DNA of 25,182 bases from a virus, in IMG/VR virus record IMGVR_UViG_3300020438_000254, positions 1-25,182 of that record, one strand, 5' to 3'. Under the pieces are notes generated by a model. It made no database searches, had not been told where the DNA came from, and worked only from the letters and a program-made list of their open reading frames with translations. Shown one piece after another: positions 5,743 to 20,386 of this stretch. A program made the position numbers and the translations under genes. The number at the start of each line of letters is the position of its first letter. Within the stretch, counting starts at the first letter, position 1.

Positions 5743-6627
5743 ATGGCAAATTTTATCTTTAAAAAAGATCAGGTTCAAGTATATGTTGTACACAACAGTC
5801 TTAAGTATAGAATTGATATAAGTGAGATAGAGTTCAGCCAAACGTTTAAAGAAAATAGTTATGATGTAAAAACATTGCATAGTGAAGACTATTTTGAAGG
5901 ATCGGTAGTTAATACGGCTAATCCTGTTAATTTTAGCCTTAACACTCCGATATTACAAGAACCAACAAATAAAATTATATTTGATAGGCTTCTTGATGTT
6001 GCAACATTTGATTTATACATTTCTACAAAGTATGATGACTTTAAGCTAGAAACTTGCGCAATTCTATCAGGGACGTTCGAGATCGAGGGATCAAGACCTC
6101 TAAGATTAGCAATAGAAGGCGAAGCATCAAAACTTTCACGCCATACTGGCAGTATACCAGGTACCTTACAAAATACTGGTATTACTACAAGTACTTACAT
6201 GTTGTCAAAGTTTGCGGCTTTGACTATAGGAACTACTAATGTTTCTCCTCTATCGCTATCTATTGAGTTGCAGAATGAATTTGAATGGAATAAGTATGTA
6301 ACAGTAAATGGAGCAGTTGATGCAACAAGCGCTGCTAATTCCATGTATCCTTCTTCATTCGTTATTGGAAAAAAGATTCTAGGAGGCTCAATAGAATTAT
6401 TATTAGAAGAAAATTCCTCAAGTATGCTAACTTGGAATACTGATACTAGTATACGTATAAAAGTAGGTACTACAACAGGGACTTTTTATGGTATAGATTT
6501 TAATTTAGCAAATTGTTCATTTACGAACAGAATAAAAACTGGTGATGTTTTTACAGAAGAATATGACTGGAGAATGATACAGAATCCAACAGCGCTTTCG
6601 AGCGTTATAACTTATACAACCACGTAG
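5743..6627 (+). CDS. Second tail-tube-like structural protein
   Basis: This 294-residue protein lies between the major tail protein and the chaperones. I read it as two beta-rich halves: ISEIEFSQTFKENSYDVKTL with NPVNFSLNTPIL in the first, and GGSIELLLEENSSSMLTW with NCSFTNRIKTGDVFTEEYDW in the second. Strands that cross from a decorated loop back to a barrel are typical of tube proteins, so it may be a minor tube ring or a partner subunit. Codon use argues against its being the main tube subunit: arginine is AGA/AGG in 6 of 8 cases, against CGN in the 564-residue protein. It is the first gene after promoter P1 and its leader hairpin. The Shine-Dalgarno is weak. It could instead be the true tube protein, with the larger gene a different structural component. 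Confidence 0.5.
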   Translation: MANFIFKKDQVQVYVVHNSLKYRIDISEIEFSQTFKENSYDVKTLHSEDYFEGSVVNTANPVNFSLNTPILQEPTNKIIFDRLLDVATFDLYISTKYDDFKLETCAILSGTFEIEGSRPLRLAIEGEASKLSRHTGSIPGTLQNTGITTSTYMLSKFAALTIGTTNVSPLSLSIELQNEFEWNKYVTVNGAVDATSAANSMYPSSFVIGKKILGGSIELLLEENSSSMLTWNTDTSIRIKVGTTTGTFYGIDFNLANCSFTNRIKTGDVFTEEYDWRMIQNPTALSSVITYTTT

Positions 6628-6641
6628 GAGATAGCAGTAAT

Positions 6642-7094
6642 ATGGAGTTAAAAAAATTAGTGGTAGATAGTAAATCTGCCTGGATGGAGTTTCCTGGACT
6701 TGAAGGTTTTGAGGTAGAAGTTGTTAATCTTTCTCGAAAAGAGTTAACAGGAATAAGAAAAAGATGCACAACATCAAAATTTAACAGAAAATCTAGACAA
6801 ATTGAAGATGTTTTAGATGAAGAAAAGTTTGTTGAACTTTTTGCAAAGAAAAGTGTCAAGAATTGGAAAGGACTAACTCTAAAACACTTAGAGACCCTTT
6901 TATTAGTTGACACATCTGGACAAGACTTAGAAAAAGAAGTACCTTACAGTACAGAAAATTCTGAGGTTTTAGTAACTGACTCTAACGAATTTGATACATG
7001 GCTCAACGAGGTAGTCTTTGACCTAGATAATTTTCGTAGCGAACCAAAGAGAGAAGTGCATAAAAAGACTGGAGGAACTACACAAAAATCTTGA
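6642..7094 (+). CDS. Tail assembly chaperone, upstream part (G-like)
   Basis: This 150-residue protein occupies the lambda G position, directly before the tape measure gene. G-type chaperones coat the tape measure and recruit tube subunits. It opens with MELKKLVVDSKSAWMEFPGL, has a helical centre, and ends with a polar tail (HKKTGGTTQKS) before a TGA in the context TGAC. AGGAG at 6626-6630 lies 11 nt upstream of the ATG, a little far. The next reading frame starts 8 nt beyond the stop, is open back to 7027, and has no ribosome binding site of its own, so a fraction of ribosomes probably change frame to make a fused product of about 265 residues. Function is inferred from size, position and this frame arrangement. 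Confidence 0.7.
   Translation: MELKKLVVDSKSAWMEFPGLEGFEVEVVNLSRKELTGIRKRCTTSKFNRKSRQIEDVLDEEKFVELFAKKSVKNWKGLTLKHLETLLLVDTSGQDLEKEVPYSTENSEVLVTDSNEFDTWLNEVVFDLDNFRSEPKREVHKKTGGTTQKS
7059..7094 (+). promoter_or_regulatory. Putative programmed frameshift region (+1 or -2)
   Basis: The upstream chaperone frame and the downstream frame differ by +1 (equal to -2), and both are open across 7027-7094. Two slip sites are plausible. At AAA-AAG (7062-7067) the lysine tRNA can move +1 from 7062 to 7063 and still pair with AAA. At CAA-AAA (7083-7088) both tRNAs can move back 2 nt onto CAC-AAA, with one wobble mismatch. The second lies 6-9 nt after a Shine-Dalgarno-like GGAGGA (7071-7076) and just before TCT-TGA, features that stimulate backward slippage. 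The zero-frame stop is the inefficient TGAC. Confidence 0.6.
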
Positions 7095-7101
7095 CTCTGG
7101 A

Positions 7102-7440
7102 ATGACGCCGGATCGTTATTTTGAGATGCAAGAACAAATGGGTCTTGAAATAATTGAAGATGATATCCCTCCAAGTTGGGATGATATGCCAGAAATTGTT
7201 ATTGATGCAGTAAATACGTTTAATCAATTAGGAGATAGAGCGTATCCCGAAATTGGCTATATGGGAAAGGATTATACAAATTTACATCACTATATCGACT
7301 TATATGATATTAGTGATAAAGAGTTTTTCTTACAGCTACTTAACTGGCTGGACTCTCGAGCAATAGAGAAATCACAAGAATACATTAAACGAGAGCACGA
7401 AAAACTAAAGAGAAAAAGTAGTGGCGTCAAACGAAATTAA
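7102..7440 (+). CDS. Tail assembly chaperone, downstream part (T-like), likely fused by frameshift
   Basis: 112 residues are counted from the ATG at 7102, but the frame is open from 7027. The residues before that ATG (RLEELHKNLDSG) look like genuine protein running straight into MTPDRYFEMQEQMGLE. There is no Shine-Dalgarno at a usable distance from the ATG, so I favour synthesis as the C-terminal part of a G-T fusion over independent initiation. The body is acidic and helical, with IPPSWDDMPEIVIDAVNTF and a GYMGKDYTNLHHYI segment, a pattern I associate with chaperones of marine phages. In lambda the T part binds tube subunits while the G part binds the tape measure. The 3' end overlaps the tape measure start by 20 nt. 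Confidence 0.65.
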   Translation: MTPDRYFEMQEQMGLEIIEDDIPPSWDDMPEIVIDAVNTFNQLGDRAYPEIGYMGKDYTNLHHYIDLYDISDKEFFLQLLNWLDSRAIEKSQEYIKREHEKLKRKSSGVKRN

Positions 7441-10400
7441 GGTTAAAATTAAGGTAGATGACGATGGTAGTCTTTCTTTAGTTCAGAAAAAATCGAAAGG
7501 TGCGGCAGACGCTATTGATAAGGTTGGTTCTGCTACTGAACAAACTGGAAAATCTGCCAAAACAGCGGATAGAAATTTAAAAGGCTTATCCAGACAGTCT
7601 GCCAATACTACTAAGAATTTCTCAAAGATGCAACAGGGAATGACCGGAGGGTTAGTTCCTGCTTATGCTATTCTTGCTTCTAATGTTTTTGCATTAAGTG
7701 CTGCGTTTCAATTCTTTAAAAGAGCGGCTGACGTAAAAAATCTTGAAGCTTCTCAAATTGCTTTCGCACAAAATACTGGTATAGCATTAGGTAGTATTAC
7801 TCAAAGGCTTCGTGAGGCTTCTGATGGTATGTTAGGATTTCAAGAAGCTGGACAAGCAGCAGCTATAGGCCTTGCAAAAGGCTTCTCCCCCTCTCAATTA
7901 GAGGCTCTAGCTGAGGGCGCACGAAAAGCATCAACCGCCCTAGGTAGAGACTTTCAAGATTCTTTCGATAGATTAGTACGAGGTGCTTCAAAAGCAGAAC
8001 CCGAACTCTTAGATGAATTGGGTATTACTCTGCGTCTGGAAGAAGCCACTAATCGGTATGCTCAAGCTATTGGTAAAAATAGAAATGAGTTAAACTCTTT
8101 TCAACGTAGCCAAGCAGTTTTAATTGAAACCCAAAGACAGTTAAATAAAAACTTTGGAGATGTAGAAGCTGCAACTAATCCCTTTATAAAACTCGGAAAA
8201 ACTCTTGGTGATATTATCAAAGATGTTACTCAGTTTTTCTTGCCCGCCTTTGAAGGCTTGGCAGCTATACTTAATAAAAGCGCTGGAGCTGCTATTGCTG
8301 CATTTGGATTGTTAGCCTTAAGTATAATTAAAACTATTGTACCTATGGATACAATCGAAGAAAAAATGGAAAAAATAGGCAACGATGCAGTAACAGACAT
8401 GCAAAAAGCCGAACAAGCAGTAAACGACTATAATGATGCTTTAAAGGCGACAGCCGCTACTGCGGAACAAGCACGAGCAGAGGGTAAGTCAGAAGTCATG
8501 AGCACCGCAAAAAAAGAGTATGGAGGAACGAAAGTTAAAACCCTACAAGCTGCGATGACTGGCAATATGACAAAACAACACCATAATTTATTAAAGGAGT
8601 CTTTTAAAAAAGCAGAACAGAACACAAATAAACATGGAGAAGTTCTTAAAGGCATCCACAAAGGAAAGAATATAGCCGTAGTTAGAGACTTGGAACAATC
8701 TTATAACAAAATGATGGCTACCGAAAAAACCTTTGTACGTTCAACTACTAATAACTTCAAAAGACTAGAATTATCAGCTAAAAAATCATTTGCACAAATT
8801 AGCCTTATAGGTAAGAGGACTTTTTTAGGACTAGCAAGCGTTGCAAAAACAGCAGGAAAAGCAATGAATACAGCATTTAAATTTGCTGGGTTTATTGGAA
8901 TGTTTGTCATGATAAAAGATATAGTTTCAGGTTTAATTAATGCACCTTTTACCATGGTAATGGCATTTGCAAAGGGCATTGACATGACACTTAGTATATT
9001 CGCTAAGTTAGTTAATGGAATTGCTCGTATGTGGTTAGGTATGACAGATTTGTTAATTAATGTTCTTGGTGATCTTTTTGGTCCGGGTTTTGGAAAGATG
9101 GCTAATAGCTTTTTAACTATGGTGCGAGACATGATCTCTTCCTACATAAATTTCTGGTTAAAAGGTATAAATAAAATAACTAGTTTTATTAATAAACTTT
9201 TACCAGAAACCAAACAGATTAGCGAAATATCAGAGTTCAAATTTGATAAAGTTACTTTACTTAATGAGGAAGAGGGTCAAGTCAGTACTTTAGCTAACGA
9301 TTTTGAAGGATTAAACGACAATTTAACAGTCACTGAAGATTTAGTAAAAAATAGCAGTTTTGGGCGTTTTCTTGAAGGTGTAGAAGGTAGAAATAAATCT
9401 ATTAAAGCCTCTGCGGAAGCTTTAAAGTCTTTTAAAGAGGGCGTTGATAAAATGAGTAACTCTCTAGGACAAAGTTTGGCTTCTATTTCGGCAGAAACTG
9501 ATCAATTAAAGAAATCAAAAATAGCATGGAACGGTTTATTCAGCCTAGATATTCCTGGACAATATGAAAAAATTAACGCAAAAGTAAGCGCTTATGTTAG
9601 ACAACAAGATGGCTCAATGAAACGCGTAACAAAGTTTGTTATGACGGATAAAGATCGAGCAAAAGCCTTAGAAGAGTTAAAAACAAAATTAGGTGATGTT
9701 GCAAAAATCTCCCCCGAATTTGGAACCGCTTTAGAACAAGCCACTTTAAAAGGAGATGCAGGTTTAGAAAAGCTAGCAATCAGACTTAGAGATGCTCAAG
9801 CAAATGCACAGTTTTTCACAGAAGGAATTGGACAACTAAGTACATCAGTAATTGATAGTCTGGGCTCAGGAGATATTGTAACAGCAATACGTAATATAGA
9901 AGAATTAGAAAAAGCCGCCCAAGAGGGTGGTGAAGGAATGAAAGGTTTAACAAAGGATGGTACATTATTAACCGATATGTTAAAGCAATTGAGAGAAGCA
10001 TTTGGTGAGGATTATGATACAGGTGAAATTCTTGCACGATTAAAACAAGAAGAAGAAATAAGACAACAGCAGATAATAGATTCAAAATTACTTGGTGGAA
10101 TACAAAACGAGATTGGGGGATATCTAAAGACAAATGCTTCGTTAGAAAAAAATATAAGCGATCAAAAATTTATACAGTATCAGCTAAGTTTGAATCTGGG
10201 TATAGCAAAAGAAACAGAGTTAAATAAAACTTTAAGACAATTAGAAGTAGAAGAAAAAATTCTTGCAATAAAGGCAAAACAACAATTATCTTCTAAAGTA
10301 GGAAGTTTAACAGGCTCCAAAACATTAGGTGGTGCAGCAACTATGTCCGCTGATATGGAGCTTATGGAAATGCGTACAAAACAGCAAGAAACAAAATTTT

Positions 10401-11518
10401 TAGCTGACATGGCAGCAGCAGGAGACGATGAAGAAGGCCAGGCAGCCTTTGATACTGCGGCAGCAGGTCTTGAAAAAGTCCGAAAAGAAATGCAGTTAAT
10501 GAAAGCTCTTCAATTCGGACAAACCTTAAGAAACTTAGGCGAAGATTTTAAAGCACTTGGGCCCGAAGGCGAATATATGGGCGGTATGTTAACCGGCCTT
10601 AGTACTATGGTGGAGTCTTGGACTATTGGAATGGAGCAAATGAAGACGGCTTCTGGAGATATGAGTAAGACTGTTCAAGGTGCTTTAACTATTGCTGGTG
10701 GAATGATACAAGGTTTGATGCAAATGCAGAAAGCTTCCTCAGACGCAAAAATCAAAAAAATAGATGATGAAATAAAAGCAGAGAAAAAGAGAGACGGTAA
10801 GTCACAAGCAAGTTTAAATAAGATAAAAGAACTAGAGAAGAAGAAAGTTCAACAGCAGAAAAAAGCGTTTGAACAAGAAAAGAAACTAAAAATTGCTTCA
10901 ACGATTATTAATACCGCGGCTGCTGCCGTAAAAGCATATGAGCTGGGGCCAATAATTGGACCAATTATGGCAGCAATGATAATTGCTATGGGTATGAAAC
11001 AATTATCGATTATTAAAGGCACTAGCTTTCAGGGAGGAGGAGATTTATCTGATACTGCCCCTACCTCGGTAACCGCAGGTAAACGAAAAAGTTCTGTAGA
11101 CTTAGCAAAGTCTCAATCAGCAGCGGGTGAGCTGTCCTATCTACGGGGAGCATCAGGTATAGGAGGTCCAGAGAACTTCCAGCCAGCCTTCTATGGTAGG
11201 AAAAATAGAGCAGAGGGCGGAAGAGCAGGATACGTTGTTGGAGAACAAGGGCCAGAACTATTTGTACCTACAGGACCAGGAACAATTGTTCCAAATGACG
11301 ATGTAGGTGCTATGGGAGGTGCTACAAACGTAACTTTCAACATTAACACTATTGATGCAGTTGGTGTTGAAGAAGTTCTTACAGAACAGCAAGGAAATAT
11401 AATTGGAATGATTAGATCAGCAGCAAATGAATACGGAGATCCATTTTTAGAAGCAGTTGATACAAGCATCTATAGTGCTCCTGAGACTTCTGGGTACGGC
11501 CCAGCTAGGAGAGCATAA
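7421..11518 (+). CDS. Tail tape measure protein
   Basis: At 1365 residues this sets tail length; by the usual ~0.15 nm per residue rule the tail would be about 200 nm. GTG is the start: the frame is in phase with MASNEIKVKIKVDDDGSL, while the next in-frame ATG is about 65 codons later. Hydrophobic stretches lie near residues 76-97, 288-308, 488-560 and 1156-1200, separated by long helical, coiled-coil-prone, Lys/Glu/Gln-rich regions, including a charged coil at 1110-1155 before the last one. Near 1265-1295 it carries AGYVVGEQGPELFVPTGPG, the classic C-terminal tape measure motif. It is translationally coupled to the chaperone gene by a 20-nt overlap. It ends PARRA, with AGGAG (11507-11511) embedded for the next gene. 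Confidence 0.93.
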   Translation: MASNEIKVKIKVDDDGSLSLVQKKSKGAADAIDKVGSATEQTGKSAKTADRNLKGLSRQSANTTKNFSKMQQGMTGGLVPAYAILASNVFALSAAFQFFKRAADVKNLEASQIAFAQNTGIALGSITQRLREASDGMLGFQEAGQAAAIGLAKGFSPSQLEALAEGARKASTALGRDFQDSFDRLVRGASKAEPELLDELGITLRLEEATNRYAQAIGKNRNELNSFQRSQAVLIETQRQLNKNFGDVEAATNPFIKLGKTLGDIIKDVTQFFLPAFEGLAAILNKSAGAAIAAFGLLALSIIKTIVPMDTIEEKMEKIGNDAVTDMQKAEQAVNDYNDALKATAATAEQARAEGKSEVMSTAKKEYGGTKVKTLQAAMTGNMTKQHHNLLKESFKKAEQNTNKHGEVLKGIHKGKNIAVVRDLEQSYNKMMATEKTFVRSTTNNFKRLELSAKKSFAQISLIGKRTFLGLASVAKTAGKAMNTAFKFAGFIGMFVMIKDIVSGLINAPFTMVMAFAKGIDMTLSIFAKLVNGIARMWLGMTDLLINVLGDLFGPGFGKMANSFLTMVRDMISSYINFWLKGINKITSFINKLLPETKQISEISEFKFDKVTLLNEEEGQVSTLANDFEGLNDNLTVTEDLVKNSSFGRFLEGVEGRNKSIKASAEALKSFKEGVDKMSNSLGQSLASISAETDQLKKSKIAWNGLFSLDIPGQYEKINAKVSAYVRQQDGSMKRVTKFVMTDKDRAKALEELKTKLGDVAKISPEFGTALEQATLKGDAGLEKLAIRLRDAQANAQFFTEGIGQLSTSVIDSLGSGDIVTAIRNIEELEKAAQEGGEGMKGLTKDGTLLTDMLKQLREAFGEDYDTGEILARLKQEEEIRQQQIIDSKLLGGIQNEIGGYLKTNASLEKNISDQKFIQYQLSLNLGIAKETELNKTLRQLEVEEKILAIKAKQQLSSKVGSLTGSKTLGGAATMSADMELMEMRTKQQETKFLADMAAAGDDEEGQAAFDTAAAGLEKVRKEMQLMKALQFGQTLRNLGEDFKALGPEGEYMGGMLTGLSTMVESWTIGMEQMKTASGDMSKTVQGALTIAGGMIQGLMQMQKASSDAKIKKIDDEIKAEKKRDGKSQASLNKIKELEKKKVQQQKKAFEQEKKLKIASTIINTAAAAVKAYELGPIIGPIMAAMIIAMGMKQLSIIKGTSFQGGGDLSDTAPTSVTAGKRKSSVDLAKSQSAAGELSYLRGASGIGGPENFQPAFYGRKNRAEGGRAGYVVGEQGPELFVPTGPGTIVPNDDVGAMGGATNVTFNINTIDAVGVEEVLTEQQGNIIGMIRSAANEYGDPFLEAVDTSIYSAPETSGYGPARRA

Positions 11519-19973: not shown

Positions 19974-20386
19974 TGCCAGATTCTGCCGGAACAAAAGTTG
20001 CTATTACTGAAGCAGTAACAACAGTAGATGTTACAAATACTACTGATATTGCTGTTACTCTTGAGGATACAACTACAACCGTAACCGTAAATAACTATGC
20101 GGTTCCTTCTGCTTATCAGGATGCTGCAAATACTGTCTTTACTCCTTATAATACAATTACTGCAACAAATGTTTCAGACGCATTGAAACAATTAGCAGAC
20201 CAAGATTTTCGTGGTGCAAGTGCTCCTACAGGTTCAACTGTTTCAGAAGGAGATACTTGGTACGATACAGATGATGAACAATTTAAAGTCTATAGAGAAA
20301 CAAGCTCAGGCACTTTTCAGTGGGTTCCCATAATAGTGGGTGCAGCTGCAGGCGATTCTGATACAATAGACGCAGGATCCTATTAG
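19973..20386 (+). CDS. Small tail fibre-associated protein
   Basis: 137 residues. The N-terminal 50 are almost all Thr/Val/Ala/Asp strands (ITEAVTTVDVTNTTDIAVTL). The C-terminal part, PTGSTVSEGDTWYDTDDEQF with QWVPI, is a short module common in phage fibre proteins, where a W-Y-D-T-D turn marks a beta-hairpin domain. It ends TIDAGSY, similar to the end of the next gene (TVDGGTYS). It starts by 1-nt overlap with the preceding gene, so the two are translationally coupled. It is likely a fibre subunit or linker; no enzyme motif is seen. Confidence 0.5.
   Translation: MPDSAGTKVAITEAVTTVDVTNTTDIAVTLEDTTTTVTVNNYAVPSAYQDAANTVFTPYNTITATNVSDALKQLADQDFRGASAPTGSTVSEGDTWYDTDDEQFKVYRETSSGTFQWVPIIVGAAAGDSDTIDAGSY

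Follow-up and report, generated by a model that had tools for sequence, protein, structure and literature searches.

A probable programmed +1 ribosomal frameshift at a conserved UUU_CGN site in the tail assembly chaperone genes of T5-like phages and their ocean relatives

Introduction

Frameshifting in tail assembly chaperone genes is textbook knowledge. In lambda, two overlapping ORFs lie before the tape measure gene, and a −1 shift at a slippery heptamer near the end of the first one yields a fused chaperone; this tail chaperone frameshift, with gpG and gpGT of lambda, was reportedly found by Xu, Hendrix and Duda in 2004 to be conserved in long-tailed phages. Forward shifts of the prfB type have a stop codon in the A site and a Shine–Dalgarno (SD) sequence that precedes the slip codon by about 3 nt, and the known stimulatory spacings are about 3 for +1 and about 10 for −1. 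Schwartz and Curran (1997) are said to have quantified +1 slippage at UUU/C-CGG/U dicodons in E. coli. In the classic laboratory phage T5, the chaperone genes T5.143/T5.142 (T5p139/T5p138) are annotated as two separate proteins.

Shifts of −1, −2 and +1 are all on record in different phages, and UUU_Ynn sequences are especially prone to +1 slippage in bacteria (PMC5009743). Shifts other than −1 are described in phage tail genes of Listeria phage Tsh, SPP1 (gp17.1*), Mu (gpGT) and the haloarchaeal HSTV-2 (PMC3498833, PMC5009743, PMC9022992), although those of Tsh and SPP1 affect tail tube proteins and Mu uses −2. Bacterial +1 slippage at UUU is known from an error in E. coli argI, from Yersinia YopN-TyeA and from FseA of ICEMlSymR7A (PMC5009743), which are cellular or conjugative-element genes and not tail assembly genes. 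The PA-X site of influenza A, UCC_UUU_CGU, where the +1 shift was demonstrated by mass spectrometry (PMC3498833), has the slip dicodon and the direction discussed here, but in an unrelated virus, protein and ribosome.

The tail module and its overlapping chaperone genes

The window, that is, the whole stretch of DNA analysed, is a virus record of 25,182 bases that carries a siphophage tail module with the order major tail protein (PHROG 3575), p140-like baseplate tube protein (5743–6627; PF23779, E 1e-15), G, T and a 1365-aa tape measure protein (7421–11518; PHROG 3779, E 3e-84, with T5 pb2-like matches), the last being the expected client of the chaperone. From the p140-like gene onwards, all the features of the module discussed here lie on the + strand. 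T5 has the same order (T5p140, T5p139, T5p138 and then pb2), and for the tape measure protein, G and T there are matches in about 900 T5-like (Demerecviridae) phage records, with identities of roughly 25–38%. The tape measure ORF has its GTG start inside the end of T, with a 20-nt overlap (7421–7440), which suggests translational coupling of the two. A 450-aa protein at 29–1381, capsid-like by its position, had no PHROG or Pfam match at E 0.001. Among the phage records, PQ773600 (Corynebacterium phage CPphiVTCCBPA_418) and OR848485 (Listeria phage LM 4-14-1) are 34.8–35.3% identical to the window G, like T5-like phages, and as both are named for Gram-positive hosts they are possibly misassigned or contaminated.

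G, the zero-frame tail assembly chaperone (6642–7094, 150 aa; PHROG 313, E 7e-16), ends in TGA followed by C, the TGAC context pointed out in the initial annotation. The T frame (PHROG 3914, tail assembly chaperone, E 1e-15) is open from 7027 to the stop that ends at 7440; it is offset by +1, equivalently −2, and overlaps G by 68 nt, so that both frames are open across 7027–7094 as that annotation had read them. Thus, as in lambda, two overlapping chaperone ORFs stand directly 5′ of the tape measure gene. A fusion read through the slip site described below has 265 residues, the size that had been anticipated: residues 1–131 of G, ending in Phe, followed by the 134-aa T part (VANQREK..., 7036–7440). 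The corresponding T5 fusion has 278 aa (...HLDTF-VAQKRKELL), and the fusion is free of stops in all 69 ocean representatives. As the +1 offset is kept in 128 distinct homologous loci, the offset and the overlap are not due to chance, and the earlier proposal of a tail chaperone pair joined by a shift into the +1 frame is supported.

The slip site in homologues

The offset is always +1 in 28 IMG/VR relatives, and the motif common to all their overlaps is TTTCG, read in G as TTT_CGN. Both G and T are present in 172 distinct loci among all those collected, with T in the +1 frame in 128 and in the −1 frame in 44. Every one of the 128 distinct +1 loci, which comprise ocean relatives, T5-like phages and T5 itself, has an in-frame TTT_CGN at one single alignment column, located in the window at 7032–7037 (TTT_CGT). 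A slip site that fits the frame is found in 172 of 172 loci, and site type and direction of the offset always agree, an internal control supplied by the family itself. A search of a genome collection with a single protein found no relative. In Aeromonas phage Akh-2 (MK318083) many tiny ORFs are annotated and the G frame is broken, probably by sequence errors, and TTTCGA is still present at the junction.

The T5-like phages share TTTCG despite overlaps as short as 26, 20, 17 and 14 nt. T5 reads GAT ACT TTT CGT AGC TCA AAA GCG TAA, with an overlap of 26 nt. In Vibrio phage 70E34-1a the overlap is only 14 nt, so that the shift must fall within AAC AAC TTT CGT TAA, where UUU to UUC is the sole cognate re-pairing and no other site is plausible. 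The E-site codon varies (AAC, AAT, ACT, CAC, ACG, TCC, TTG, ACC, and GGG in Vibrio phi 3), and the A-site codon of the representatives is CGT in 71, CGA in 5, CGC in 4 and CGG in 1; what is conserved throughout is the core UUU_CG. Exactly TCC_TTT_CGT, the PA-X nonamer, is present in Pectobacterium phage DU_PP_V, although the E-site codon is otherwise unconserved in the phages. When the 20 +1 lineages with less than 70% identity are treated as independent, the probability that all 20 use TTT rather than TTC, given the local codon use, is about 1e-4, and that all 20 use CGN rather than AGR about 1e-8, values that serve only as guides because the lineages are related.

The initial annotation had located the slip elsewhere, either as a +1 shift on AAA-AAG (7062–7067) or as a −2 shift on CAA-AAA (7083–7088) helped by GGAGGA at 7071–7076. 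Its suggestion to align homologues turns out against both places, which are unconserved even in close relatives and fall past the G stop where the overlap is short, as in the 26-nt overlaps of T5 and of locus L025 and in the 14-nt overlap of Vibrio phage 70E34-1a. The conserved TTT_CGT, which was absent from its list, lies 30–50 nt upstream of them.

In all 128 +1 loci, UUU would stand in the P site, the next codon begins with a pyrimidine and T is in the +1 frame, which is the arrangement of the bacterial UUU_Ynn sites. The direct homologues in T5 and other Demerecviridae share the +1 offset and TTT_CGN with the window, and the clade of the window adds an upstream element and longer overlaps. 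Unlike prfB, the A site holds a sense codon, CGN, and in the window the SD-like GAGGT is 19 nt upstream of TTT. Unlike lambda, neither the window nor T5 has an X_XXY_YYZ heptamer with the second ORF in −1; that form is found only in a sister clade.

Where coding passes from G to T

Base variability was measured by codon position in 20 relatives with overlaps of equal length. Before the site, variability peaks at the third base of the G codons (0.78 bits vs 0.23 and 0.13); between the site and the G stop the peak has already moved to the third base of the T codons (0.95 bits vs 0.79 and 0.58), where it stays past the G stop (1.17 bits vs 0.64 and 0.52). Coding thus passes from G to T at the slip site and not at the ATG at 7102. 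In line with this, T-frame homology in the IMG/VR loci begins 5′ of that ATG, and the alignment of G loses its conservation after Phe-Arg. The part of G past the slip codon (7035–7091) is variable in length and sequence and is predicted to be disordered, with pLDDT below 50 from residue 134 of the AlphaFold model, just past the slip codon. The T-frame codons upstream of the first ATG (7036–7101), which would be reached only through the frameshift, are modelled as part of a helix at T residues 2–22 (block mean pLDDT 76–90). Both models were built from alignments of the window and IMG/VR rows only. The residues before the ATG had been judged protein-like from the window alone, and the upstream homology together with the T-frame variability agrees with that judgement; this half of the proposed alignment check stands, as these residues are under T-frame selection.

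No credible relative was found in the PDB by sequence, and no significant match by fold with Foldseek, where the top TM-scores (0.41 by target length), with non-significant E-values, belong to the tail chaperones HK97 2ob9 and YqbN 3klu.

Alternative readings of the overlap

T could instead be made independently of G, with reinitiation after the G stop at the ATG at 7102 or at another in-frame start. The T5-like records annotate two proteins, an ATG equivalent to that at 7102 is present in 65 of 81 representatives, and in the window it follows the G stop by 7 nt. However, no SD-like 4-mer lies in range of this ATG in the window, as the initial annotation had noticed, and in 79 of the 81 representatives the region has no ATG at all with an SD-like 4-mer, so that the conserved ribosome binding site and start that the annotation had named as evidence against a fusion do not appear. 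A start codon is missing at the position of 7102 in loci L005 and L023, and in L003 from the whole 90 nt that follow the site. The methionine (7102–7104), which belongs to a Gly-Met-Thr, is a conserved residue within the domain, and it is preceded by the selected residues of the modelled helix. A TTG in the T frame at −14, with GAGGT upstream, was also considered as a start and rejected: a T-frame TAG (7024–7026) follows it in the window; G codons TTA or CTA before GAN, which is the form most often met in the clade, always create this stop; and a TTC as the preceding Phe codon removes the TTG. The T frame is then continuous through a conserved slip site, and its candidate starts are unconserved or lack an SD, as expected for a G/GT pair. 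Judged on these comparisons, the ATG at 7102 is an internal methionine codon and not the start of T; a separate T, which also leaves the invariant TTT_CGN without explanation, is very improbable.

The same fused frame would be reached by a −2 shift, at the slip codon or at CAA-AAA, and phage Mu does use −2 (PMC3498833, PMC5009743). Although the frame is compatible with a Mu-type shift, the potential for re-pairing speaks against it: two bases back from TTT the triplets follow the variable E-site codon and are varied and non-cognate for tRNA-Phe, whereas one base forward is always the cognate UUC. CAA-AAA, for its part, is unconserved and past the G stop in many relatives, and the PA-X shift at UUU_CGU was shown to be +1 (PMC3498833). 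We therefore regard −2 as very unlikely; its product would carry one extra Phe (DNFFVANQR vs DNFVANQR for +1). Polymerase slippage or a sequencing error could also join the frames or mimic their joining, and a short run of T is present at the site. This run has only 3–4 T, however, and 128 distinct loci, drawn from many metagenomes and isolates, repeat the arrangement and never vary in TTT; since an error would not be conserved, such an origin is extremely unlikely. No conserved RNA structure was accepted around the site, where the consensus energy is about −5 kcal/mol and one pair shows change on both sides.

Proposed mechanism of the +1 shift

A programmed +1 ribosomal frameshift at UUU_CGU (7032–7037) is thus very probably what yields the GT fusion chaperone. 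Most ribosomes would read past the site and produce the 150-aa G. With UUU in the P site and the CGU codon not yet occupied, some of the peptidyl-tRNA-Phe (anticodon GAA) would slide one base forward, exchanging the wobble-paired UUU (7032–7034) for the fully paired UUC (7033–7035). The next codon would be GUA, and the T frame would be continued to give the 265-residue GT (...DLDNF-VANQREK...). The efficiency of the shift would be modest. In T5, the tryptic junction peptide expected under +1 is DNAVMLMQNSAAFDSWINQTVFHLDTFVAQK. On the model of lambda, G would be expected to cover the tape measure protein, with the T part bringing in the tail tube protein.

According to a published table (PMC3498833), CGU is not among the rare codons of E. 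coli, which counts against the frameshift model, as do the published statement that T5 has no predicted signal and the failure to find a stimulator shared by all +1 clades. In-frame TTT_CGN is not clearly avoided elsewhere in the window (2 seen vs 3.0 expected), and for this reason the dicodon alone may be weak or insufficient. Within the window's main genes, TTT_CGT recurs in frame just once, at 20207–20212, in a 137-aa gene downstream.

An upstream element in the ocean clade

In the ocean clade, a second constrained element, CTCAAYGAGGTAGTC, lies at −30 to −16 from the slip codon, at 7002–7016 of the window, where it reads CTCAACGAGGTAGTC. Its codons CTC-AAY-GAG-GTA-GTC are nearly fixed at synonymous positions in the 69 representatives of the clade (CTC in 65, GAG in 69, GTA in 68 and GTC in 67), and four of the six top columns of excess synonymous conservation across the whole fusion fall in it. 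Exact matches to the element are found in at least 119 IMG/VR stretches, and TTTCG starts exactly 30 nt after the start of the element in 78 of the 80 matches examined. The element was not detected in either the T5 or the −1 clade. A search for a stimulator shared by all +1 clades found none, and there is no conserved hairpin near the site.

It is plausible that the element acts as a 5′ stimulator of the shift. Its GAGGU could pair with the 3′ end of the 16S rRNA, but at 19 nt from the slip codon it is outside the known stimulatory spacings. A wider proposal can be made tentatively, and we hold it as a possibility that is rather less than even: that CUCAAYGAGGUAGUC (−30 to −16) would be a new kind of 5′ mRNA stimulator, raising +1 slippage to the level needed in tail assembly, and that the family would have swapped −1 and +1 at one codon position through a single-base indel, which would be tolerable because neighbouring forms such as GAAAAUUUUC can slip either way.

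The sister clade and the change of direction

The 44 loci with T in the −1 frame form a sister clade (in the ranges L075–L099 and L180–L228), in which a canonical −1 heptamer (G_GGA_AAC, G_GGA_AAG or A_AAU_UUU) is present in 44 of 44, at the same column as the +1 site or one before; the site of this clade is GGGAAACTTTTCGA. In an unrooted tree built from 102 G proteins without the columns of the site, the +1 and −1 states need a single change (support 85, from few columns), and the −1 clade, some of whose contigs are about 100 kb long, sits between the T5 and ocean clades.

The −1 form AACTTTTCGA and the +1 form AACTTTCGA are one T apart. The −1 locus L224, which is the first branch of its clade, reads GAA AAT TTT ACT, and eight ocean +1 representatives read GAA AAT TTT CGN or similar, so that they also hold A_AAU_UUU. 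These eight are L035, L104, L111, L117, L131, L162, L166 and L174, and a −1 slip in them would reach a stop within 1–12 codons. A single-base indel beside a sequence that can slip either way would be a simple route between the two directions.

Significance for T5 and its relatives

Tail chaperone shifts as such are known; what is new is a putative one that uses UUU_CGN and is conserved over a large phage family. In the T5-like records examined, G and T are always annotated separately and never joined, and a report of a UUU_CGN site in T5-like phages was not found in the literature searched, which was mostly other than subscription papers. The Sugarland genome announcement states that no frameshift signal was predicted, as in T5, and cites the 2014 T5 morphogenesis paper (PMC6256483), so that the shift proposed here appears to have been overlooked in T5. 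A published tool seeks forward shifts only at runs of 3–4 bases followed by a rarer A-site codon (PMC10885494).

If the +1 reading is true, a GT chaperone would be made by T5 and its relatives, which amount to about 900 matching phage records besides hundreds of ocean contigs, and their gene calls would need correcting. The family would also offer a natural and highly conserved bacterial UUU_CGN site for studies of +1 slippage, in a convenient host, and its sister clade is unusual as a natural example of a programmed frameshift whose direction would have changed while its position and product were kept.
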